The position numbers were made by a program, and so were the translations under genes. A stretch of DNA of 64,000 bases from Marinibacterium sp. (GTDB lineage Bacteria > Pseudomonadota > Alphaproteobacteria > Rhodobacterales > Rhodobacteraceae), in the NCBI GenBank assembly GCA_025800215.1, contig JAOXSC010000073.1, positions 1-64,000 on the forward strand. Reading direction: 5' to 3'. The notes below the pieces were generated by a model. That model saw only the letters and a list, made by a program, of their open reading frames with translations. It was not told the origin of the DNA and ran no database searches. Within the stretch, counting starts at the first letter, position 1; every line of letters begins with the position of its first letter. Shown piece after piece: positions 3,299 to 57,863 of this stretch.

Positions 3299-3390
3299 GC
3301 ATCGGTTTGGGAACACGGATCATCCGGCAGCCCCTTTGCGTTTCCACGGACCCGCCCCCGCACCGGCAGGTACGAGGGCGGGGAAAACGA

Positions 3391-45942: not shown

Positions 45943-46644
45943 TCAGACCGCCAAATATGTTCGTGATATATCAGGATTGGCGTCCAGATCGTCGAAACGA
46001 CCCTCGAAGCGTATTTGTCCCTTTTCAATAATATAGGTTCGGTCAGACACTAGGCGGGCGAAATGCAGATTCTGTTCGCTGATCAATACCGACAGGCCTT
46101 CGCGTTTCAGTTCGGCAATCACGCGGGCCATCTGTTCGACGATCACCGGCGCAATACCTTCGGACGGTTCATCCAATAGAATCAACCTTGGGTTGCCCAT
46201 CAGGGTGCGTGCAATGGTCAGCATCTGCTGTTCACCGCCCGACAGTTGCTTGCCCAGATTGCGCCGCCGTTCCCGCAGGTTCGGAAACAGCGCATAAAGA
46301 TGATCGAGCCCCCATTCGGGCGCATCCGGGCGTGGCGGGCGGCGGCCGACCTCAAGGTTCTCTTCCACCGTCAGTTCACCAAAAATGCGCCGGTCTTCAG
46401 GCACATAGCCCAGACCCTGACGGCAGATCGCATGCGACGCCCGGCCCAGAATGTCGCGCCCGTCATAGCGCACCGCCCCGCCGGTCTGCCGCAGCAGGCC
46501 CATAACCGACTTCATCGTGGTCGATTTGCCCGCCCCATTGCGCCCCATCAGGGCGACCACTTCGTTCTGACCCACGCGCATGGACACGCCATTCAGGATC
46601 TGCGCGCGCCCGTACCAGGCGGACAGGTCTTGGATCTCAAGCAT
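45943..46644 (-). CDS. Liv-type ABC transporter ATPase (LivF), second system
   Basis: A 233-residue ATPase with the normal Walker A GRNGAGKSTTMKSVMG, signature LSGGEQQMLTIARTL and Walker B LILLDEPSEGIAP. Start at ATG 46644, overlapping the LivG-type gene by 8 bases. Because it is embedded in the nicotinate-type operon, it probably energises import of the pyridine carboxylate rather than of amino acids. Confidence 0.87.
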   Translation of the reverse strand: MLEIQDLSAWYGRAQILNGVSMRVGQNEVVALMGRNGAGKSTTMKSVMGLLRQTGGAVRYDGRDILGRASHAICRQGLGYVPEDRRIFGELTVEENLEVGRRPPRPDAPEWGLDHLYALFPNLRERRRNLGKQLSGGEQQMLTIARTLMGNPRLILLDEPSEGIAPVIVEQMARVIAELKREGLSVLISEQNLHFARLVSDRTYIIEKGQIRFEGRFDDLDANPDISRTYLAV

Positions 46645-47410
46645 CGGATGCCTCCGTTTCGAACACGGCACCGCCGCCCAGATAGACCTCTTGCACCAGC
46701 GGGTTGGCGCGGATGTCGCTGCCGCTGCCTTCGGCGATGATCTCGCCCCGGTTCAGCACCAGGATCCGGTGTGCATGGGCAAAGACCACATCCATATCAT
46801 GTTCGGTAAAGACCACGCTGACACCGCCACGCGCCACGATCTCCGCCGTCAGCGCCATCAGCGCCACCCGTTCGGACGGCGCCATGCCCGCCGTGGGTTC
46901 ATCCATCAGCAGCAGCGCGGGTTCATGCGCCAGCGCGATCGCCAGTTCCAGCCGTTTGAGATCGCCATACGCCAGTTCCGAGCACGCGCGCCCGGCCTGA
47001 TCGCGCATCGACACCAGATCGAGCAGCGCCATCGCTTCGTCCACGTAAAGGCGGGTGGCGCGCGAAAACAGGTCGAACACCCGGCGGTGATGGGAAATCA
47101 GCGCCATCTGCACGTTTTCCACCACGGTCATCGACATAAAAGTCGATGTGATCTGGAATGTCCGGCCCACACCCATGCGCCAGATGTCGCGCGGCGGCTT
47201 GCCGATCAGCGACTGCCCGCCCAGCGAAACCGTGCCTTCATCGGGCGGAAGATAGCCGTTGAGCATGTTGAAACAGGTGGTCTTTCCCGCCCCGTTGGGA
47301 CCGATCAGCGCAAGGAATTCGCCCTCGGCCAGATCGAAATTCACATCCCTGACCGCGCGGATCCCGCCAAAGCTCTTGGACAGACCGCGCACCTGCAGAA
47401 CCGTGCTCAT
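46637..47410 (-). CDS. Liv-type ABC transporter ATPase (LivG), second system
   Basis: A 257-residue ATPase with Walker A GPNGAGKTTCFNMLNGYLPP, FQITSTFMSMTVVENV and Walker B LLLMDEPTAGMAPSE. It starts at ATG 47410 and overlaps the permease stop by 4 bases (ATGA). An in-frame alternative nine codons earlier lies inside the permease gene and is unlikely. Confidence 0.87.
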   Translation of the reverse strand: MSTVLQVRGLSKSFGGIRAVRDVNFDLAEGEFLALIGPNGAGKTTCFNMLNGYLPPDEGTVSLGGQSLIGKPPRDIWRMGVGRTFQITSTFMSMTVVENVQMALISHHRRVFDLFSRATRLYVDEAMALLDLVSMRDQAGRACSELAYGDLKRLELAIALAHEPALLLMDEPTAGMAPSERVALMALTAEIVARGGVSVVFTEHDMDVVFAHAHRILVLNRGEIIAEGSGSDIRANPLVQEVYLGGGAVFETEASDA

Positions 47411-49251
47411 GCTGCACCCCGCTTGATGATGCGCCACAGGCGCTGAATGCCGCCGGCAATCCCGTCAGGCGCCACCAGCACCACCACCAGGATGATCGTG
47501 CCGAAGATGAAGCGCCAGTAATCCAGCCGCGTCACCCAGTCTTCGATCAGCACAAAGGCCGACGCCCCCAGGATCGGCCCGGCCAGCGCGTGAATGCCGC
47601 CCAGAAGCACCATGATCAGCCCGTCAATGCTCAGCGCGATGCCAAGGCTGTCGGGAAAGACGCTGCCCTTGGAGAAGGCAAAGACCACCCCCGCCAGCCC
47701 GGCAAACGCACCTGCAATGACAAACCCCATCCATTGATGAAACCGTGTGTCCACGCCGATCGCTTCAGCGCGGGTCTGGCTGTCGCGCACCCCGCGCAGC
47801 ACATAGCCAAAGGGCGAATAGGCGATCCGCCGCATCACCCAGATGCCGCCCACGCACAACACGAAAGCGATGTAGAAGTAGACACGGTCCGAACTGGCCC
47901 AGCCGGGCGGCCAGACACCCAGAATGCCATCATCCCCGCCGGTGAAATCCTGCCACTGAAAAGTCACGCCCCACAGGATCTGCGCCGCCGCCAGCGTCAG
48001 CATCGCCAGATAGACACCCGACAGCCGCACGCTGAACCAGCCGAAAAACAGCGCCGCCAGCGCCGCGCATAGCGGGCCGAATGCCATCGCGGGCAGCATG
48101 CCAAAGCCCAGGAACTTGACCGCCAGCGCCGCCGCATAGGCCCCGACCCCGAAATAGGCAGCATGGCCGAAACTGACCATCCCCCCGATCCCCATCATGA
48201 AATGCAGCGACACCGCAAACAGCGTCGCCACCATCACATCAACCAGCAGCACGCTGGTGAATTCGGCGGTGAAGAGCGGGCTCAGCGCCAGCGCCATCAG
48301 CCCCGCGCACATCACCATCATCGCCTTGGGGCTCATCAGGGTCAGCGGCGCTTCGGGGGCTTCGGGGGCGCCCGCTTCGCTGCCCGGTTTGCCCAGGATC
48401 CCATAGGGCCGGAAGATCAGCACGATCGCCATGACGATAAAGGGCAGCACGATCGAGATCTGCGGAAAGATCAGGATGGCAAAGGAATTGAGCACCGAAA
48501 TCAGCACCGCCGCCACAAAGGCCCCCGACACGCTGCCCATGCCACCGATGACCACCACCACAAAGGCTTCGCCGATGATCGACAGATCCATCTGCAGCGA
48601 CACCGCCTCGCGCGGGATCTGCAGCGCCCCGCCCAGCCCCGCCAGCGCCGAGCCCAGGACAAAGGCCGCCGAAAACAGCCACGCCTGGTTGATGCCAAGC
48701 GCCCCGACCATCTCGCGGTCCTGGGTGGCGGCGCGCACCAGCACGCCCCAGCGGGTCTTGTGAAACAGCAGCCAGATCCCGGCCAGCACGGCCGGGCCAA
48801 TGGCGATCAGCGCCAGGTCATATTCCGGGATCGGCTCGCCCAGGATCCGCACCGCGCGATCCAGCCCCGGCGCGCGCGGGCCCAGCAGATCTTCGGCCCC
48901 CCAGATCGCAAGGGCCGCATCCTGCACGATCAGCACCACCCCGAAAGTGGCGACAAGCTGAAACAGTTCGGGCGCGTGATAGATGCGACGCAGGATCGTC
49001 AATTCCACAACCAGCCCGATCAGCCCCACCACCAGCGCGGCCAGCACCACCCCTCCCCAGAAGCCCAGCACGCTGCCACTCCAGAGGGTGACCAGCGTAT
49101 AGGCCAGATAAGCGCCCAGCATGTAGAACGACCCATGGGCAAAATTGACGATCCGCGTGACGCCAAAGATGATCGACAGACCGGATGCGATCAGAAACAG
49201 CGATGACGCGTTCGCAAGCCCGGTCAGCAGCTGCGCAAAGTAAAATCCCAT
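47407..49251 (-). CDS. fused LivH-LivM permease
   Basis: A 614-residue protein that joins both Liv permeases in one chain. The LivH half (about 1-290) has ASGLSIIFGVTRIVNFAHGSFYMLGAYLAY and VIGGMGSVSGAF. A short linker rich in Glu, Ala and Pro (GSEAGAPEAPEAPLTLMSP) follows at about 300-318. The LivM half (to 614) has FMMGIGGMVSFGHAAYFGVGAYAAALA and LIMVLLGGIHALAGPILGA. The ATG at 49251 starts MGFYFAQLLTGL, as LivH proteins do; the upstream open frame runs into the binding-protein gene. The fusion fixes a 1:1 pore and contrasts with the separate livH and livM at 4853-7092. Confidence 0.88.
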   Translation of the reverse strand: MGFYFAQLLTGLANASSLFLIASGLSIIFGVTRIVNFAHGSFYMLGAYLAYTLVTLWSGSVLGFWGGVVLAALVVGLIGLVVELTILRRIYHAPELFQLVATFGVVLIVQDAALAIWGAEDLLGPRAPGLDRAVRILGEPIPEYDLALIAIGPAVLAGIWLLFHKTRWGVLVRAATQDREMVGALGINQAWLFSAAFVLGSALAGLGGALQIPREAVSLQMDLSIIGEAFVVVVIGGMGSVSGAFVAAVLISVLNSFAILIFPQISIVLPFIVMAIVLIFRPYGILGKPGSEAGAPEAPEAPLTLMSPKAMMVMCAGLMALALSPLFTAEFTSVLLVDVMVATLFAVSLHFMMGIGGMVSFGHAAYFGVGAYAAALAVKFLGFGMLPAMAFGPLCAALAALFFGWFSVRLSGVYLAMLTLAAAQILWGVTFQWQDFTGGDDGILGVWPPGWASSDRVYFYIAFVLCVGGIWVMRRIAYSPFGYVLRGVRDSQTRAEAIGVDTRFHQWMGFVIAGAFAGLAGVVFAFSKGSVFPDSLGIALSIDGLIMVLLGGIHALAGPILGASAFVLIEDWVTRLDYWRFIFGTIILVVVLVAPDGIAGGIQRLWRIIKRGAA

Positions 49252-49318
49252 GGGGTGACTGTCCCTTTCCTGGCGGTGCGGAAATGGCCGGGCGGTGCGC
49301 CGCCCGGCCGGTGGCGGA

Positions 49319-50533
49319 TCACTCGGCCGGGCGCAGGGCGGCGGCGTCAGCTTCAGAGGGCAGGTAATCGGCCCCGTCCGCATAGGACCAGTCGACCATC
49401 GACGGCACCCCGTCGACCAGACCGGTGCGGCCCACATAGGCACCCATGGTCGACTGGTGATCGGCGGCGCGGAAGGTGAAGGGCCCGGTGGGGCTGCTGT
49501 CGACGTTCAGACCCTCCATCGCGGCCAGCAGGGCGTCGGTGTCGGTCGACCCGGCCTTTTCCAGCGCAGCGGCGATCGCCAGGATCGAATTGTAGCCGAC
49601 GATGGACCCGGTTTTCGGGATCTCGCCGAACCGCGCCTCATACGCCTCGGCAAAGGCGTTGTGGGCAGGCGTATCAATGTCGGCAGGCGGATAGCCGGTG
49701 ACAATCCAGCCTTCGGGCGTTTCATCGCCAAGCGGCAGCAGATATTCCGGCTCGCCCGTCAGCAACGACGCCACATCACGGTCTTCGAACAAAAAGCGCA
49801 GCGATCCTTCGCGCACGAATTTGGCCAGGTCACCGCCAAAGGTGACGTTGAAAATCGCATCCGGCTTTGACGCCTCAAGTGCGCGCACGGTGGATCCGGC
49901 ATCAATCTTGAAGACCGGCGGCCATTGTTCTTCGACAAATTCCACATCCGGGCGCAGGCGGGTCAGTTCGCTTTTGAACGCCTTCACCGCATCCTGACCA
50001 TAGGCATAGTTCGGCGCCACGGTGGCCCATTTCACCGCATCAAGCTTGGCCGCCTGTTCGGCCAGCATCGCGGCCTGCATATGTGTCGAAGGCCGCAGCC
50101 GGTAGGTGTATTTGTTCCCCTTGGACCACACGATTGCATCCGACAGCGGTTCGGATGCCAGGAACAGAACCTCTTTCTGTTTGGCAAAATCGGCCACGGC
50201 CAGCCCGATATTGGACAGGAAGGTGCCAAAGATCAGCACTGCGCCATCCTTCGACACCAGCTCTTCGGCGATGCGGATGGCGGTGGCGGGATCGCCGGTG
50301 TCGTCGCGGCTGATCACCTCGAGCGGGCGGCCATCAATGCCGCCGGCGGCGTTGATCTGTTCCACCGCCAGTTCCCAGCCCTTCTTGTAGGGTTCGGTAA
50401 AGGCCGGCAGGCGGGTATAGCTGTTGACCTCGCCCAGGATGATGGGATCGGCGGCCTGGCCCGCCTTGGGCATCAGGCCGATCATCGGCAAGGCCGCAAT
50501 CGCGCCCAGAACGGCGCGTCTGATAACTGTCAT
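49319..50533 (-). CDS. ABC transporter substrate-binding protein (Liv/Peripla_BP_6 type)
   Basis: A 404-residue periplasmic binding protein with a signal peptide (about 1-28, RRAVLGAIAALPMIGLMPKAGQAAD, with twin arginines at positions 5-6). The two-lobed type I fold has YKKGWELAVEQINAAGGIDGRPLEVISRDDTGDP and IVGYNSILAIAAALEKAGS. AGGAG precedes the ATG. It lies between the PF06684 genes and the fused permease in one minus-strand operon. The ligand is probably a pyridine carboxylate or related heterocycle, judged by context. Confidence 0.86.
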   Translation of the reverse strand: MTVIRRAVLGAIAALPMIGLMPKAGQAADPIILGEVNSYTRLPAFTEPYKKGWELAVEQINAAGGIDGRPLEVISRDDTGDPATAIRIAEELVSKDGAVLIFGTFLSNIGLAVADFAKQKEVLFLASEPLSDAIVWSKGNKYTYRLRPSTHMQAAMLAEQAAKLDAVKWATVAPNYAYGQDAVKAFKSELTRLRPDVEFVEEQWPPVFKIDAGSTVRALEASKPDAIFNVTFGGDLAKFVREGSLRFLFEDRDVASLLTGEPEYLLPLGDETPEGWIVTGYPPADIDTPAHNAFAEAYEARFGEIPKTGSIVGYNSILAIAAALEKAGSTDTDALLAAMEGLNVDSSPTGPFTFRAADHQSTMGAYVGRTGLVDGVPSMVDWSYADGADYLPSEADAAALRPAE

Positions 50534-50654: not shown

Positions 50655-51236
50655 TCAACGCAATCCGTCCTCTCCTTTTGCATCCTGGCTGGTCAATCCC
50701 CCGACCCGAGGCAACGGGCGTCCACTATCGGTGACAGCGACCGCCACCATGATCTCACGCGCGCGGGGGGCGTCGTTGAGCATCACCTCGATCCCGTCGA
50801 AATGGCTGCGCACATAGGCGGCATCCTTGTGCCCCAAAGGCACGTCCAGCACCTGCCCCGGACTGCCCATCTTTTTCGACGATGGCACCAGCGCCGCCCC
50901 TTTTTCGACCTCGTGGCGCAGCGGCGCGCCCAGTTTGGGATGCAGGATCGCGGCGGCATGTTCCAGTTCGCCCAGCTCGCCCACCATGGCCGATTTGCCA
51001 TAGCTTTCGGCCTGATCGGGCGTGATGCCAAGCGCGTCGACACAGCGCCGCCCCAAAAGCGCGCCCAGCTCGGCGCCGCTGTCCATCAGCGGGGTCAGAT
51101 CTTCGACATAGCGGCCGGCAAAGGGGTTTTCGATCACCGCCACGGCCACCGCCTTGCGGGTGGGCGGGGCGATGGTCTGCCCGGCCTCGATATGGGTTTC
51201 TTCCACCGTGACGGCGATCTTGCGGATCCGTGTCAT
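50655..51236 (-). CDS. PF06684 (DUF1185, 'amino acid synthesis') family protein, copy A
   Basis: A 193-residue soluble protein. Family hallmarks are ENPFAGRYVEDL (about 36-47), GELGELEHAAA, LVPSSKKMG (about 115-124), YVRSHFDGIEV and a C-terminal GLR. Structures of the family have a chorismate-mutase/RidA-like fold; the biochemical function is unproven despite the family name. It overlaps copy B by 4 bases (ATGA), and the 121-base gap to the binding-protein gene follows. Its position between importer and reductase genes suggests a role in the same pathway. Confidence 0.82.
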   Translation of the reverse strand: MTRIRKIAVTVEETHIEAGQTIAPPTRKAVAVAVIENPFAGRYVEDLTPLMDSGAELGALLGRRCVDALGITPDQAESYGKSAMVGELGELEHAAAILHPKLGAPLRHEVEKGAALVPSSKKMGSPGQVLDVPLGHKDAAYVRSHFDGIEVMLNDAPRAREIMVAVAVTDSGRPLPRVGGLTSQDAKGEDGLR

Positions 51237-51814
51237 CTCAGCCCGTCCTTTCCTGTGATCTGCGATGCCTCAAGCCCGCCCGAGCGCGAATGCACCCGTG
51301 GCCCCGTGGTCATGACAAGGGCAAAGGCCAGTTCATCGGCGCGCGGGGCATCGGTGCAGCCGACCTCCATACTGTCGAAATGGCTGCGCACATAGGAGGC
51401 GTTGATATGGGTGATCGGCACATCCAGCCGCGCGCCGACCCCGCCGACCTTTTTCGACGAAGGAACAATTGCATTGGCCTGCCCCAGAAGCTGGCGCATC
51501 GCATAGCCGCCCGGTGCATGCCAAAGCGCGCCATGCTCAAGCTCGCCCGCAGCACCCACCAGCGATCCCTTGCCATATCCTTCGATCTGATCCGCACCCC
51601 CAAGGGCCTCAATCAGCCGCTGCGCCAGCGCCAGCCCCAGCGGTTTGAGATCTTCCATGAAGGGCTGGATGTCGGGTTCATAGCGGCCCGCAAAGGGGTT
51701 GGCGATCACCGCCAGGATCGACGCCCGGCGCAGCGGGGTTGCGGCGACGGGGCCGCCTTCGTGAAAGATCTCTTCGACCGACAGCACGGTCTTGCGCAAT
51801 TGCAGCTCAGGCAT
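51233..51814 (-). CDS. PF06684 (DUF1185, 'amino acid synthesis') family protein, copy B
   Basis: A 193-residue paralogue of copy A with the same landmarks: ANPFAGRYEPDI, GELEHGA, IVPSSKKVG, YVRSHFDSMEV, CTDAPRADE and a terminal GLR. Apart from these motifs the two are clearly diverged, so the duplication is old and the two may form a hetero-oligomer. It starts 8 bases inside the UPF0280 gene, with AGGAG upstream. No catalytic residues are established for the family. Confidence 0.82.
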   Translation of the reverse strand: MPELQLRKTVLSVEEIFHEGGPVAATPLRRASILAVIANPFAGRYEPDIQPFMEDLKPLGLALAQRLIEALGGADQIEGYGKGSLVGAAGELEHGALWHAPGGYAMRQLLGQANAIVPSSKKVGGVGARLDVPITHINASYVRSHFDSMEVGCTDAPRADELAFALVMTTGPRVHSRSGGLEASQITGKDGLR

Positions 51815-52667
51815 GGGCGGGCTCCTGTTGAATGGGGGGCGGGGTCACGGGGGCATGATCGGTCTGGCAGGCCTGCCCGCGCAGCACCAGATAGGCGGCC
51901 CGGATCAGCCCGCGCGCTTGCATGTCACGGGCCACGCGCAGCCCGCGCTGCAACGCGCTCTGGCATTCGGCGGGATCAAGCGGGCCGACCCCGACAACCA
52001 CCGGGCGCGCGCCCAGATCACTGTCATCGCGGATGCTGTGCGCGGGCGCACGGGCGATGGCGGGATGTCCGGGCAGATCCACCGCATTGGCAATCAGCGT
52101 CGCGGCCACATCCGCCGCAGCCGCCCCGTGCGCCAGCACCGTGACGCTGTCGGCAATGCCGAAGCCAAGGCTCCGGCCCCCGCGCCCCGAGGTGGCGATG
52201 CCGCCGATGCCGTCGCCTGCGGTGATGCCGACCCGGCCCAGATCCGCCCCGTCCAGCCCGGCAACAGCAATGCGGAACCGCGCGCCGGGCGCCAGCCACA
52301 GCGCGATGTCGCCACCATTGTTCACAGATGCCCGGCGCAGATCGGCCGCATCGCGCATCGCCCCCAGAACCTCATCCGCGACGGCCCCCGCCACAGCCGC
52401 CATCGGCGTCACAAAGACACCCGCATGGCGCCGCACCGCATCATGCATGCGCCGCGCCACCGGGCCTGCGGGCGGCGGGGCGGCCGGATCCATGGGCGCC
52501 CTGAGCAGGGGCAGGTCTTCCACCAGCCCCGACAGGATCGTGTCAAACCGGGCCCGCGCCGCCGCATAGGCGGCCGTCCGGTCGCCATCTGCCGTCACCA
52601 GCAGATCAATCGGCCCGTGCTGCAGATGCAGCCGCCCATCCCCCAGTATGACAGCCCGAGGCCCCAT
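51807..52667 (-). CDS. UPF0280 family protein (ApbE-like fold)
   Basis: A 286-residue protein of the UPF0280 family, which is related in fold to the flavin transferase ApbE. Conserved glycine-rich parts are ASVNNGGDIALWL (about 155-168) and GDGIGGIATSGRGGRSLGFGIADSVTVLA, corresponding to the flavin- and metal-binding parts of ApbE. Its ATG follows the TAG stop of the 6-hydroxynicotinate-reductase gene with no gap, so it is translationally coupled to it. Because the characterised reductase carries covalently bound flavin, a flavinylation role is an attractive inference. There is no signal peptide, so it acts in the cytoplasm. Confidence 0.8.
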   Translation of the reverse strand: MGPRAVILGDGRLHLQHGPIDLLVTADGDRTAAYAAARARFDTILSGLVEDLPLLRAPMDPAAPPPAGPVARRMHDAVRRHAGVFVTPMAAVAGAVADEVLGAMRDAADLRRASVNNGGDIALWLAPGARFRIAVAGLDGADLGRVGITAGDGIGGIATSGRGGRSLGFGIADSVTVLAHGAAAADVAATLIANAVDLPGHPAIARAPAHSIRDDSDLGARPVVVGVGPLDPAECQSALQRGLRVARDMQARGLIRAAYLVLRGQACQTDHAPVTPPPIQQEPAHA

Positions 52668-54218
52668 CTATCCCTTGTCCCCCTTTGACCAGCGATAGTT
52701 GCTCGACGCCATCGGATCGGGCTGGCCCGCCAGCCCTTCGACGCGGCGGTCACGGTCGCTCAGAACCTCGGTCACCGGGCGGATTTCGCTCATATGCCCG
52801 CCCAAGGCGTCATAATCGCTGACCCGCATGGTGAATTCGATGGGCGCCACCAGCGCCGGGGTGGGGACATAGCCGAAGGATTCAGTGGGCATGTCCATCA
52901 CATCCACCATCACGGTGATGCCGCCACCCGGCCAGACATAGGCTTCGGCCCCGCCGCAGGACACATAGGTCAGCGCACCTTTCACCGATTTGGTCAGCCG
53001 CACGGGGTTTTCGGTGACCCCGGCCCGCAGGCTGCCCCCGGCCCCGCCCATGAACAGCACCGAACAGACCGACGGTTCACAGTTCTCCGCGATCAGATCG
53101 GCCGAGCGCCTCAGCTGGTCGGGAATGGCCGCAGGCTGCGGGATCAGATCCTCATCCAGCTGGAAATAGCCATATTGCTCGCCCGTGGTCGACACCATCA
53201 GCAGGCTCAGGCCCGCGCGCGCGTGCTTGGGGTTGAAGTCCCCCAGAATGGTCAGCGGATCGTGAATATCGGTGCCGCCCCAGCCGGTGCCGGGTTCGGC
53301 CACGTTGAAATAGCGCCCCGGCGTCGACCGGCGCCCGTTGATGCGGATCCCCGTCGGCGGCACATCCAGCAGCTTGCCCGCCTGATGTTCCGACAGCACG
53401 CCGGTGATGTGGTCATCGACCACGACGACCTCGTCGACATGGCCGACCCACTGGCGCGCAAACATGCCGATCGCGGCCGATCCACAGCCCACACGCATCA
53501 GCTTTTCTTCGACCCCGTTGATCACCGGCGCCCGGCCCGCCTGCACGATGATGGTGGTTTCGTGGCCCGGCTCCCCGATCACCATCTCGACCGCCGCGCG
53601 GTTGCACAGGCGCAACAGCGCATCGCAGGTCACCCGCCCTTCGGCCTTGGAACCCCCGGTCAGATGTTCTACCCCGCCCAGCGACAGCATCTTCGAGCCA
53701 TATTCGGATGTCATCACATGCCCGATCGGCTCGTCCGCGACGCGCACCACGTCGCGCTCGTGGCCGATATGGCGGTCGGTGTCGATCTTCACCTTGACGC
53801 CGCAATAGGAAAAGATGCCTTCGGTCACCACCGTGACCATATCCACATCATCGACCTGCTGGCTGACGATAAAGGGCGCGGGCTTGTAATCGGGATAGGT
53901 CGTCCCGGCCCCCACCGCCGTCACGAAGGGCCGCGTGCCCTGCACGATGTCCCCATCCCAGTCATCGGGCCCCGCGCTGTCCTTGAGAAACGGCACCAGC
54001 CGCGCGTCACCCCCATCCGCCCTGTCGATGCCGTCGATGATGGTCAGCGGATCCAGCCGCACCAGATCGCCGCCGTGATTGGCATAGCGATCGCAGGCCC
54101 CGATGCGGCCCTCGGCGATATAGCACATGACCGGGCAGGCATCGCAGCGGATCTTGTCGGGCCGGGACCGCCCGCCGCCCATGGCCGCATCGGCCCCTTT
54201 GTCCGGTGGCATGCTCAT
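52668..54218 (-). CDS. 6-hydroxynicotinate reductase-like iron-sulfur flavoprotein
   Basis: A 516-residue cytoplasmic enzyme. An N-terminal cysteine cluster CDACPVMC...GACDRY (Cys25, 28, 32 and 42) suggests one [4Fe-4S] centre. Other conserved-looking parts are TEGIFSYCGVKVKIDTDRHIG, YGSKMLSLGGVEHLTGGSK, VINGVEEKLMRVGCGSAAIG, and the glycine-rich FMGGAGGSLRAGVTENPVRLT. It matches the enzyme that reduces 6-hydroxynicotinate to 1,4,5,6-tetrahydro-6-oxonicotinate in E. barkeri. Its start overlaps the Mo-hydroxylase stop by 4 bases (ATGA). The electron donor is unclear because no ferredoxin gene is nearby. It is the diagnostic gene of this cluster. Confidence 0.82.
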   Translation of the reverse strand: MSMPPDKGADAAMGGGRSRPDKIRCDACPVMCYIAEGRIGACDRYANHGGDLVRLDPLTIIDGIDRADGGDARLVPFLKDSAGPDDWDGDIVQGTRPFVTAVGAGTTYPDYKPAPFIVSQQVDDVDMVTVVTEGIFSYCGVKVKIDTDRHIGHERDVVRVADEPIGHVMTSEYGSKMLSLGGVEHLTGGSKAEGRVTCDALLRLCNRAAVEMVIGEPGHETTIIVQAGRAPVINGVEEKLMRVGCGSAAIGMFARQWVGHVDEVVVVDDHITGVLSEHQAGKLLDVPPTGIRINGRRSTPGRYFNVAEPGTGWGGTDIHDPLTILGDFNPKHARAGLSLLMVSTTGEQYGYFQLDEDLIPQPAAIPDQLRRSADLIAENCEPSVCSVLFMGGAGGSLRAGVTENPVRLTKSVKGALTYVSCGGAEAYVWPGGGITVMVDVMDMPTESFGYVPTPALVAPIEFTMRVSDYDALGGHMSEIRPVTEVLSDRDRRVEGLAGQPDPMASSNYRWSKGDKG

Positions 54219-56968
54219 GAGGCGGCCTTTCGGATCGCCGCGCGCAGACGCGACGGGGTGGCCGGAATGCGCGTCAGCCGCACGCCGCAGGCGCGCCGGA
54301 TCGCGTTCAGCAATGCGGGCGCGGTGGGGATCAGCACATGTTCGCCCAGCCCCTTGGCGCCAAAGGGGCCGTGGGCGTCGGGCTCTTCTATGATCAGCGT
54401 TTCGATGGGCGGAATGTCCCCGATGGTTGGGATCAGATAATCATGCAGATTCTCGGTGCGCCCCGGCTGATAGTCCTCCATCAGGGCCATGCCAAGCCCC
54501 TGGGCAATGCCGCCCTGCACCTGGCCTTCGACCAGCAGCGGGTTGATCGCGCGCCCCACATCATGGGCCGCCACGAATCGCACCGCCCGCACCGTGCCAA
54601 GCCGCAGATCAACCTCGACCACGGCCAGATGCGCGGCATAGCCGAACTGGGCATAGGGCGCGCCCTGCCCGTTTTCATCAAGCGGCTGCGTGGGCGGATC
54701 ATAGCTTTGATCGGCGCACAGCACATAGCCCATGGCATCGGGCGCAAGCTGGCTCAGGTCAATGCGGTGCGTCTGCCCCCCATCAACCACATGGATCCAG
54801 CCATCGCCCAGACCGATCACCGCATCCGGGCCCGCATTGACCCGCGACAGGATCTGCGCGCGCAGATCCGCGCCCGCCAGCCGCGCGGCGTTGCCCGACA
54901 CATAGGTCTGGCGCGATGCCGATGTCTTGCCCGCATCCGGCGTCACATCGGTGTCGCCGCCGATCAGGTGCACCGCGCCCACCGGCACGCCAAGCGCGCT
55001 GGCAAAGATCTGGGCAATCACCGTATTGGCCCCCTGCCCGATATCCATCGCCCCCTGATGCAGCACCAGCCCGCCATCGGCGCGCAGCCCCGCCCGGATG
55101 GTCGACGGGTTGGGCAGGGATGTGTTGCCACAGCCATACCACCCCGCCGCAACCCCAACGCCGCGCGCCACCCCGTCGCTTTGCGCATTGAACGCCTCGG
55201 CGGCGGCACGTTCGCGGGCATAGGCCGGGCGCAGGGCGGTCAGGCAGGCCCCGATGCCCACCCCCTGATCAAAGACCTGACCGCAGACGGTGGGCACACC
55301 GTTGCGCAGCGCGTTGCGGATGCGAAACTCCAGCGGGTCGATGTCCAGCCCGTCGGCCAGATCGTCAAACAGGCTTTCCTGCGCGATCGCCGCCTGCGGC
55401 ACGCCAAACCCGCGGAACGCCCCCGATGGCGGGGCATGGGTGTGAATGCCGGTCGCTCCGGCCCGGTAGTCGGCCACGCGATAGGGCCCCGAGGCATGGA
55501 CCGGCACCCGCGCCGCCACGGTCGGCCCCCAGCTGGCATAGGCGCCGGTGTTGAACAGCCCGTCAAACTGCAGCCCGCTCAGGGTGCCATCGCGCATCGC
55601 CCCGATGCGCAGGCGCAGGTCGGACGGGTGGCGCTTGGTGGTCGACTGCATCGATTCCGCCCGCCCATAGGCCAGCCGCACCGGCCGCCCGGTCTTGATT
55701 GCGGCCAGCGCCAGATAGGGTTGCACCGACAGATCAAGCTTGGATCCGAACCCGCCCCCCGTTGCGGTGGGCAGGATGCGGATCCGGTCCTGCGGCCAGC
55801 CCAGGATCACGGCCAGCGCCTCAAGATCCATGACCGGCGCCTGGGTGCAGGCGTGGATCTCAAGCCGGTCATCGACCAGCCGGGCAAAGCCCGCCTCGGG
55901 CTCGATATAGGCGTGCTCGACAAAGCCCGACCGAAAGCGCCCTTCGACCACCAGATCGGCCCGCGCCAGCGCCGCATCGACATCACCGCATTGCACCTTG
56001 CCCCCACACATCACATTGCCTGCGCGGCCGGCATGCAGCCGTGGCGCATCCGGCGCCATCGCCCCGGCCATGTCCGGCGTGGACGGGCATTCGTGCCAGG
56101 TGACCGGGAAATCGGCAGGATCAAAGCCCGCAACGGCCTGCGGCGTGCCCACAATCGCGGCGACGGCCTCGCCGCGAAACCGGGTTTCGCCGGTCGCAAA
56201 AACAGGCTGGTCGACAAAATCGGGGATCACGCCAAAGAGGTTGCGGCCCGGCACGTCCGCAGCACTCAGCACCGCCACGATGCCCGGCTGCGCTGCGCGC
56301 CAGCCCTCAAGATCCCCCAGATCGAACCGGGCGCGCGGGTGGGGCGCGCGGATCAGCGCAATCTCCAGCGTGCCGGGCGGGGCGATGTCATCGCCGAATT
56401 GCTCGGTCCCGGTGACCTTCGCAGCCCCATCCAGCCGCCGGATCGCCGCCCCCACCGATCCCTGATCATCGCGGCGCGCCGGGCCGTCTGCCCCGCGCAC
56501 GGCGTCGATGATCTTGCGATAGCCGGTGCAGCGGCACAGCACGCCGCCCAGGGCATCCTGCACCTGCGCTTCGGACGGCTGAGGCGTGTCGCGCAGCAGA
56601 GCAACGGCGGCCACCATCATCCCCGGCGTGCAGATCCCGCATTGCGCGGCGCCGTGATCTTCGAACCGTTGGGCCAGCGCCTGCGCATCGGGGTCCTGCG
56701 CGACCAGACCGGCCAGCGTGTCGACCTGCCGGCCCGCCGCCTGATGCGCCGGCGTCAGACAGGCACAGACCGGATCGCCATCGACCAGCACCGTGCAGGC
56801 CCCGCAATCGCCCGCATTGCAGCCGATCTTGACGTCACGCGCGCCCAGCGTTTCGCGCAGCATTTCGGACAGGCGCATGCCCGGCCGGGCCCCGGCCCGC
56901 ACCTTCGCGCCGTTCAGCGTGAACGCCAGATCAGGATCCTGCAGTCGGGGGTCCATTGGTCTATCCAT
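54215..56968 (-). CDS. molybdenum hydroxylase, fused [2Fe-2S] and Mo-cofactor subunit (nicotinate dehydrogenase candidate)
   Basis: A 917-residue xanthine-dehydrogenase-family enzyme. Residues about 1-165 carry two [2Fe-2S] clusters: C50-x4-C55-x2-C58-x11-C70, then CGICTPGMM and CRCTGY. Residues about 180-917 form the molybdopterin domains, with TATGGGFGSKLDL, SGAFRGFGVPQAA, GKTSASRQTYVSGNA and the catalytic Glu in GAKGLGEHVLIP near the C-terminus (about residue 876). It should hydroxylate a ring carbon beside nitrogen. Given the downstream reductase, nicotinate to 6-hydroxynicotinate is the likely reaction. Of two ATGs (56968 and 56956) I take the first, which overlaps the FAD-subunit stop by 8 bases. 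The FeS and Mo parts are separate proteins in E. barkeri. Confidence 0.8.
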   Translation of the reverse strand: MDRPMDPRLQDPDLAFTLNGAKVRAGARPGMRLSEMLRETLGARDVKIGCNAGDCGACTVLVDGDPVCACLTPAHQAAGRQVDTLAGLVAQDPDAQALAQRFEDHGAAQCGICTPGMMVAAVALLRDTPQPSEAQVQDALGGVLCRCTGYRKIIDAVRGADGPARRDDQGSVGAAIRRLDGAAKVTGTEQFGDDIAPPGTLEIALIRAPHPRARFDLGDLEGWRAAQPGIVAVLSAADVPGRNLFGVIPDFVDQPVFATGETRFRGEAVAAIVGTPQAVAGFDPADFPVTWHECPSTPDMAGAMAPDAPRLHAGRAGNVMCGGKVQCGDVDAALARADLVVEGRFRSGFVEHAYIEPEAGFARLVDDRLEIHACTQAPVMDLEALAVILGWPQDRIRILPTATGGGFGSKLDLSVQPYLALAAIKTGRPVRLAYGRAESMQSTTKRHPSDLRLRIGAMRDGTLSGLQFDGLFNTGAYASWGPTVAARVPVHASGPYRVADYRAGATGIHTHAPPSGAFRGFGVPQAAIAQESLFDDLADGLDIDPLEFRIRNALRNGVPTVCGQVFDQGVGIGACLTALRPAYARERAAAEAFNAQSDGVARGVGVAAGWYGCGNTSLPNPSTIRAGLRADGGLVLHQGAMDIGQGANTVIAQIFASALGVPVGAVHLIGGDTDVTPDAGKTSASRQTYVSGNAARLAGADLRAQILSRVNAGPDAVIGLGDGWIHVVDGGQTHRIDLSQLAPDAMGYVLCADQSYDPPTQPLDENGQGAPYAQFGYAAHLAVVEVDLRLGTVRAVRFVAAHDVGRAINPLLVEGQVQGGIAQGLGMALMEDYQPGRTENLHDYLIPTIGDIPPIETLIIEEPDAHGPFGAKGLGEHVLIPTAPALLNAIRRACGVRLTRIPATPSRLRAAIRKAAS

Positions 56969-57794
56969 CAGCCTGCCCCGCCGCTCGGATCGCGCGGGCA
57001 CAGAGTTCGGCCACCGCCTCCATCCGGTATTCGGCCGACCCGCGCAGATCCGCAATCGGGCTCAGGCCCGACAGGTGATCGGGGTCCACCCGCACCGCAT
57101 CAGGGCGCGCGCCGATCGCCGCGCGCTCAAGCCCGCTCAACCGCTGCGCCACCGCCGAGCACGCCCCCACAGCCACCCGCGCACGGGCAATCCGCCGATC
57201 CGGCCCCAGCCCGATCAGCACCGCCACCATTGCAATCGAAATCACCATGTACCGCCGCGCGCCCAGCTTTTCAAAGCGCCCCACCGCGCCCGCAGGCGGG
57301 TCGGGCAGCAGCACGGCGGTCACCATCTCATCCGCAGCCAGCCCGGTCTCGCGCACCCCGGTGACAAACCGCTCAAGCGGCACCACCCGGCGCCCCCGCA
57401 GCGATCCGATCTCGACCCTGGCGTCCAGCGTCAAAAGCGGCGGCACCCCGTCGGCGGCGGGCGAGGCATTGCACAGATTGCCCCCCACCGTACCGCTGTT
57501 CTGGATCTGCAGGCTGCCCACCTCGCGCGCGGCGGCCTGCAGCCCGTGAAAGCCCGGCGGCAGATCGGCCTTCCACAGATCCGCCCAGCGGGTCGCGGCC
57601 CCGATGCGCCATTGCCCATCCGCACGGGTGATCCCGCGCAGCCCCGCCACCGTCGTCACATCCAGGATCGGCCCGGTCAGATCGCGCGGACCGGATGCGG
57701 CGAACACATCCGTGCCCCCCGCCACGATCCGCACCCCGCCCGAAGCAAGATGCGCATAGGCATCATCAAGTGTCCTGGGTGTTAGGTAGCGCAC
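56961..57794 (-). CDS. molybdenum hydroxylase FAD subunit
   Basis: A 277-residue FAD-binding subunit of the CoxM/XdhB type. It begins VRYLTPRTLDDAYAHLASGGVRIVAGGTDVF and contains SLQIQNSGTVGGNLCNASPAADGVPPLLTLDA, the two FAD-binding loops. I choose the GTG at 57794 because GGGAG stands 7 bases upstream and the family similarity begins there, although the frame is open 80 codons further. It is the first gene of the long minus-strand operon and passes electrons from the [2Fe-2S] clusters to an acceptor. Confidence 0.85.
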   Translation of the reverse strand: MRYLTPRTLDDAYAHLASGGVRIVAGGTDVFAASGPRDLTGPILDVTTVAGLRGITRADGQWRIGAATRWADLWKADLPPGFHGLQAAAREVGSLQIQNSGTVGGNLCNASPAADGVPPLLTLDARVEIGSLRGRRVVPLERFVTGVRETGLAADEMVTAVLLPDPPAGAVGRFEKLGARRYMVISIAMVAVLIGLGPDRRIARARVAVGACSAVAQRLSGLERAAIGARPDAVRVDPDHLSGLSPIADLRGSAEYRMEAVAELCARAIRAAGQADG

Positions 57795-57822
57795 GTCACA
57801 GCTCCCGGCCCACAATTTCTTG

Positions 57823-57863
57823 TTCGTATACAAATGGTAGAGCCGGCCCCGAACACCTGTCAA
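57823..57863 (-). promoter_or_regulatory. putative promoter and operator of the N-heterocycle operon
   Basis: On the minus strand TTGACA (complement of 57858-57863) is followed 18 bases later by TACCAT. Immediately downstream lies a dyad-like TTGTTCGTATACAA (plus-strand reading, about 57820-57833). GTTCGTATACAAATG here matches GTTAGCATACAAATG (44242-44256) in front of the enamidase gene in 13 of 15 bases. Both could be MarR operators. Confidence 0.42.

Follow-up and report, generated by a model that had tools for sequence, protein, structure and literature searches.

The window examined here, a stretch of 64,000 nucleotides from Marinibacterium sp. (GenBank assembly GCA_025800215.1, contig JAOXSC010000073.1, positions 1 to 64,000), carries on its minus strand a gene for a 6-hydroxynicotinate-reductase-like protein and, immediately downstream, a gene of the UPF0280/COG2122 family. 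The first (52668..54218) encodes the 516-amino-acid core of a 6-hydroxynicotinate reductase (HNR), which at 40.7% identity over 462 residues is a full-length homologue of the Eubacterium barkeri enzyme; the second (51807..52667) encodes a 286-amino-acid protein of the ApbE superfamily. The junction reads ...GGA TAG ATG GGG..., and the UPF0280 ATG is the codon directly after the reductase TAG, just as a first-pass annotation of the window had read it. That annotation proposed that UPF0280 attaches flavin covalently to the reductase. Because UPF0280 is a remote relative of ApbE, the enzyme that couples flavin mononucleotide to proteins, and is found together with HNR in every genome examined, it probably installs the HNR cofactor, with the reductase as proposed flavin acceptor and UPF0280 as proposed flavinyl transferase or maturation factor. 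Neither protein has an evident export signal, judged by eye, in keeping with the cytoplasmic target that had been suggested.

The two genes belong to a longer minus-strand operon. Upstream of them lie the flavin adenine dinucleotide (FAD)-binding subunit of a molybdenum hydroxylase (56961..57842; PF00941, 8.7e-38) and then a xanthine-dehydrogenase-family fusion of [2Fe-2S] and molybdopterin parts (54215..57055), a ring hydroxylase that matches the E. barkeri nicotinate dehydrogenase chains (3hrd); the start codons of both are uncertain. Downstream follow an AA_synth (PF06684/DUF1185) protein that is a conserved operon partner (51233..51814; PF06684, 7.8e-72; PDB 3byq), a second AA_synth paralogue (50655..51236; PF06684, 6.6e-72) and a branched-chain-type ABC importer made up of a binding protein, fused permeases and two ATPases (45943..50533; binding protein to Peripla_BP_6, 5.8e-69).

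Pairing of HNR and UPF0280 across genomes

We sampled 795 genomes from three phyla: 249 Pseudomonadota, 148 in the phylum of a deltaproteobacterial metagenome-assembled genome (MAG) and 398 Bacillota. HNR is present in 60, and exactly the same 60 contain an HNR-type UPF0280, the pair nearly always being adjacent. The match is complete within each set, as HNR and UPF0280 share the same 18 genomes in the Pseudomonadota, the same 15 in the Bacillota and, when only high-scoring HNR-type UPF0280s are counted, the same 27 in the phylum of the deltaproteobacterial MAG, where 25 have both on one contig. The hypergeometric probability is 3e-30 for the deltaproteobacterial-type set and 9e-28 for the Pseudomonadota; these values ignore kinship, though three phyla and many genera are represented. 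Co-occurrence had been named in the first-pass annotation as a check on its proposal, and the identical genome sets are in keeping with it. The annotation had also raised the prospect of UPF0280 genes found mainly without a reductase. Taken over all UPF0280s this is the case, since a second clade goes with the DUF39/COG1900 homocysteine enzymes; within the HNR-type clade it is not.

The same partnership is seen on plasmids, with HNR in 26 PLSDB records and UPF0280 in 27. The extra plasmid is pBPS33-1 of Hydrogenophaga sp. BPS33 (NZ_CP044550.1, 156263-187087), which has UPF0280 at four places; each of the two copies examined directly follows what is left of an HNR truncated near IS1071, its C-terminal stub. 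Distances among the HNR proteins track those among their UPF0280 partners (r=0.88), which is what co-inheritance of neighbouring genes would produce. As a side observation, the same two pBPS33-1 copies lie with a Rieske oxygenase and a MarR regulator in IS1071-linked units.

The pairing extends to the locus of the characterised enzyme. We located the E. barkeri nicotinate cluster in GTDB genomes by means of the E. barkeri enamidase (PDB 2VUN). In strain VPI 5359, a gap of 13 bases separates hnr (L042:1830-3329) from a downstream UPF0280 gene (GTG at 3343), which is the only UPF0280 in a genome that has no DUF39. Downstream of it is what we take to be a series of a hydroxymethylglutarate-dehydrogenase-like gene, nicotinate dehydrogenase subunits, enamidase, AA_synth and later pathway genes. 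The HNR purified from E. barkeri (Alhapel et al., 2006) reportedly contained covalently bound flavin, one [2Fe-2S] and two [4Fe-4S] clusters. The window operon resembles this cluster (hnr, ndhFSLM, ena) in combining hnr, UPF0280, a molybdenum hydroxylase and AA_synth, but differs in having two AA_synth copies plus the ABC importer and in that no enamidase was seen in it. In addition, the window HNR, like other proteobacterial HNRs, has no N-terminal 2[4Fe-4S] ferredoxin domain; the characterised enzyme has one, as do the Bacillota and deltaproteobacterial-type HNRs of our alignment. Nicotinate clusters of Azorhizobium and Bradyrhizobium likewise contain an HNR, 42% identical to that of E. barkeri (PMC3511419); those clusters, unlike the window operon, are linked to growth on nicotinate.

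UPF0280 as a relative of ApbE

The window protein is a clear member of its family, scoring 359.1 bits (1.4e-107) against NCBIfam NF003322, where the curated cut-off is 290. Against the Pfam ApbE model it scores alone only 12.6 bits, below the cut-off of 25.6; some UPF0280s lie above that cut-off, for example at 29.4 bits, and the E. barkeri protein reaches 30.8 when neighbouring pieces are counted. Comparison of profiles is more telling: hhalign aligned a UPF0280 profile with an ApbE profile built here at 97.6% probability (E=4.5e-12, 97 columns), and the alignment runs through GxxxD, NNGGD, ATSG, VTV and ADxxxT. The ApbE-like NNGGD and ATSG loops noted in the first-pass annotation are thus both present and aligned to the same ApbE loops. 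A search of structures with the UPF0280 profile returned the crystal structure of a relative (2o34, 7e-33); FAD:protein flavin mononucleotide (FMN) transferases followed as weak matches, from E=0.035 onward.

The motifs that UPF0280 has in common with the ApbE/Ftp transferases (PF02424) are the GxxxD helix, N-x-GGD, TSG and ADxxxT, and several are strictly conserved among 43 UPF0280s. In the NNGGD motif (residues 116-120; 52308..52322), which aligns to ApbE N-x-GGD, G118, G119 and D120 are invariant. The TSG motif (residues 159-161; 52185..52193), part of ATSG (158-161), has S160 in 43/43 and T159 in 42/43, and the DxxxT of the ADAxxT motif (residues 186-190; 52098..52112), aligned to ApbE ADALAT, has D186 and T190 in 43/43. 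In ApbE of Vibrio cholerae, Ser241, His257 and Asp285 have been singled out as active-site residues (PMC12052999). We equate the TSG serine and the ADxxxT aspartate with Ser241 and Asp285 by motif, not by structure; on this basis the active-site Ser and Asp are kept in all 43 UPF0280s.

Several observations weigh against a transferase of the known kind. The loop that holds the general-base histidine of ApbE (...RYHHILDPxTGxP..., ~20 residues) is missing from UPF0280, the spacing from SG to ADxxxT is 25 in 43/43 UPF0280s as against about 48 in ApbE, and a His falls within that stretch in only 8/43. The N-terminal region of ApbE is unmatched in UPF0280, and no lipoprotein signal is evident. The ApbE target motif, D-x-x-[ST]-G-A-[ST], was not found in the window HNR, and E. 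barkeri HNR has only a chance TGGT; HNR also has no FMN_bind domain. From the literature, we found no report of FAD or FMN on any UPF0280, a passage of PMC5764234 cites the view that COG2122 homology stops short of the flavin-binding region of ApbE, and MA1715, a COG2122 protein of Methanosarcina, has been described as trafficking sulfur in methanogen sulfide assimilation (PMC12068725). UPF0280, as judged by its motifs, is therefore a member of the ApbE superfamily that fails a defining feature of the known transferases, and with the catalytic His missing its transferase activity is not to be assumed. The predicted transfer would need a different base, or a base supplied by the target.

The nearest rival to flavin transfer is that UPF0280 is a non-catalytic chaperone or assembly factor for flavin or another cofactor, delivering FAD or FMN or holding the apo-reductase while the flavin bond forms otherwise. 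Loss of the His loop in 43/43 UPF0280s that keep the pocket motifs is consistent with such a role, and the strict pairing with HNR fits a chaperone as well as it fits an enzyme. However, the invariance of D186, T190 and S160 suggests a working metal or phosphate site, and for V. cholerae ApbE with its His replaced by Gly a reduced rather than absent activity has been described (PMC12052999). We regard the chaperone as unlikely.

Flavinylation by UPF0280 is, in our assessment, the best single explanation of the pairing, and we lean towards it; that UPF0280 itself transfers flavin to HNR seems somewhat probable, and a dedicated role in flavinylation or maturation of HNR appears well supported by context. 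The dedicated system envisaged in the first-pass annotation agrees with the ApbE homology, the exclusive pairing in 60/60 genomes, the adjacency in E. barkeri and the lack of another recognised ApbE in 9/17 genomes (see below), but not with the threonines that it named as possible acceptors or with the state of the catalytic His. We propose that UPF0280 would serve as the dedicated cofactor-attachment factor of the HNR-type enzyme encoded just upstream. It would bind FAD with Mg2+ at the conserved GGD / TSG / DxxxT site and move FMN onto a Ser or Thr side chain of the reductase in the cytoplasm, with release of AMP. The reductase would then pass electrons from its iron-sulfur clusters through the tethered flavin to a hydroxylated N-heterocycle, the putative product of the neighbouring molybdenum hydroxylase. 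Cytosolic ApbEs with soluble targets exist, and the pair of cytosolic ApbE and soluble fumarate reductase in Klebsiella pneumoniae (PMC12052999) shows that a flavin transferase of the cytoplasm can have a soluble target of its own; there, in contrast, the transferase is a true ApbE and the target fits the ApbE motif. Our literature search found no paper connecting UPF0280, HNR and flavin. Four points are new here: HNR and UPF0280 are matched exactly one-to-one in three phyla, the pair is also found at the characterised hnr locus, UPF0280 has no His loop, and the family connects HNR with the DUF39 enzymes of homocysteine synthesis. The proposal offers a function that can be tested for a conserved family that has had none assigned.

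The reductase and its candidate acceptor residues

An alignment of 39 HNR sequences has ~80 invariant columns, among them the four cysteines (C25, C28, C32, C42) of a CxxCxxxCx9C iron-sulfur motif (54093..54146). The AlphaFold model of the window HNR has a pLDDT of 84 and a pTM of 0.82. No Pfam family matched the window reductase, and Foldseek of the model gave nothing at E<=0.001. The best VIA match, to the glycine-cleavage T-protein with a Z of 4.9 over 67-69 residues, is within background.

The threonines that the first-pass annotation had put forward as flavin acceptors lie in the RAGVTENPVRLT stretch (residues 398-409; 52992..53027). T402 is Thr in 26/39 HNRs and otherwise Cys, Val or Ala; T409 is Thr in 34/39 and otherwise Asn or Ser. 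Given this incomplete conservation, we rejected an acceptor within RAGVTENPVRLT. An acceptor in GCGSAT was also rejected, as position 249 is Ala in the window HNR. S396, directly before RAGVTENPVRLT and in the same loop, is invariant in 39/39, and T129, T132, S137, T147, S175, T187, S247, S298, T316, T344, T345 and T453 are invariant too. None of these Ser or Thr residues falls in an ApbE target motif.

There are two further explanations of the covalent flavin. First, the canonical cellular ApbE might flavinylate HNR, with the UPF0280 pairing incidental to operon inheritance. Both the window genome and E. barkeri do have a canonical ApbE. However, in at least 9 of 17 near-complete proteobacterial HNR genomes (G035, G159, G167, G171, G194, G197, G200, G207 and G217) the ApbE model matched nothing, or UPF0280 only, although a divergent ApbE could be missed in this way. 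The absence of the target motif from HNR and the rise in UPF0280 copy number with a second partner family also argue against this explanation, which we consider highly improbable. Second, the flavin bond might form autocatalytically as an 8-alpha link to an invariant His or Cys, with UPF0280 working elsewhere in the pathway, on nicotinate metabolites, as an enzyme or subunit. HNR does have invariant H270, H278 and C245, but the homology of UPF0280 to ApbE speaks against this, as does the fact that the family also accompanies DUF39 enzymes with unrelated substrates, a pattern that favours action on the partner proteins over action on a metabolite. We judge an autocatalytic link to be very unlikely.

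Several minor observations concern the reductase. In Sagittula and the Comamonadaceae, where HNR has no ferredoxin domain of its own, a ferredoxin-NADP reductase gene lies beside HNR (L039:9021-9848, L038:8956-9729) and may provide the electron source for such HNRs. The 4-Cys region (residues 25-42) weakly matches (E about 1e-5) the start of ~340-amino-acid proteins in many genomes (G296, G332, G289 and others), possibly as a common small iron-sulfur module, and the window HNR weakly matches the AmmeMemoRadiSam radical-SAM model. Several deltaproteobacterial-type HNR matches (L051/G255, G262, G278) were reported with one internal TAA; a full-length open reading frame lies at the same locus, and the search tool probably read beyond the true stop.

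The DUF39/COG1900 clade and further cluster members

Most UPF0280 genes outside the Pseudomonadota score much lower (about 1e-20), and these form a separate clade (100/100 support; five sequences sampled). Their partner is DUF39/HcyBio: in 148 genomes, DUF39 and second-clade UPF0280 are both present in 96, DUF39 alone in 3 and UPF0280 alone in 7 (Fisher 6e-26), and only 5/108 UPF0280 genomes have neither HNR nor DUF39. Two genomes with both HNR and DUF39, those of Acetobacterium bakii and the deltaproteobacterial MAG, have two UPF0280s, one of each kind, and in A. bakii the second adjoins DUF39. In the Synechococcus elongatus control genome, DUF39 was matched and UPF0280 was not detected. As to the two partner enzymes, hhalign of HNR against DUF39 gave a probability of 0.5% and aligned only a 22-column VDVVTxxT motif, no PDB match is common to the structure-match lists of their AlphaFold models, and neither model has a clear PDB match.

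MA1715 and Desulfovibrio DvMF_0044 belong to the same UPF0280/COG2122 family by annotation and NF003322, and are likewise dedicated partners of a ferredoxin-linked enzyme; they differ from the window protein in their separate clade, in their partner (DUF39/COG1900) and in a role described as sulfur trafficking. Desulfovibrio requires COG2122, along with DUF39 and NIL/ferredoxin proteins, to make homocysteine (PMC5764234); neither the sulfur donor nor the electron count of this synthesis is settled (PMC12068725). These reports favour a further alternative, in which UPF0280 handles sulfur, by persulfide delivery or Fe-S maturation as proposed for MA1715, and matures the iron-sulfur centre of HNR; the invariant 4-Cys motif of HNR would fit such a role. 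However, across the UPF0280 alignment no Cys or His column exceeds 10/43, and the lack of a conserved sulfur-carrying Cys counts against a persulfide carrier or relay. The invariant residues are instead those of a nucleotide/metal pocket, and HNR would presumably rely on the general Fe-S machinery. A sulfur role thus appears quite unlikely.

Taking both clades together, the best reading is that COG2122, as a member of the ApbE superfamily, would attach cofactors to enzymes of two ferredoxin-linked families. A more specific version is possible but doubtful: that the COG2122/UPF0280 proteins form a cytoplasmic ApbE-superfamily branch which, without the His loop, attaches flavin both to HNR and to the DUF39/COG1900 sulfurtransferases of homocysteine (and perhaps also coenzyme M) synthesis. 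If this were true, the DUF39/COG1900 sulfurtransferases would be unrecognised covalent flavoproteins, which would explain the COG2122 requirement for homocysteine formation. Flavinylation would gain a cytoplasmic branch whose catalytic machinery is altered, and covalent flavin would be predicted in an enzyme family not known for any. The idea bears on two open problems, the installation of covalent flavin in HNR and the role of COG2122 when methanogens, sulfate reducers and clostridia make homocysteine.

AA_synth proteins, present in nearly all HNR contigs examined, are a third near-constant member of the HNR clusters (L038, L039, L042, L047, L048, L051); the window has two such paralogues. 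Crystal structures of the family exist (3byq, 2qtp), and the reduced ring is a possible substrate.

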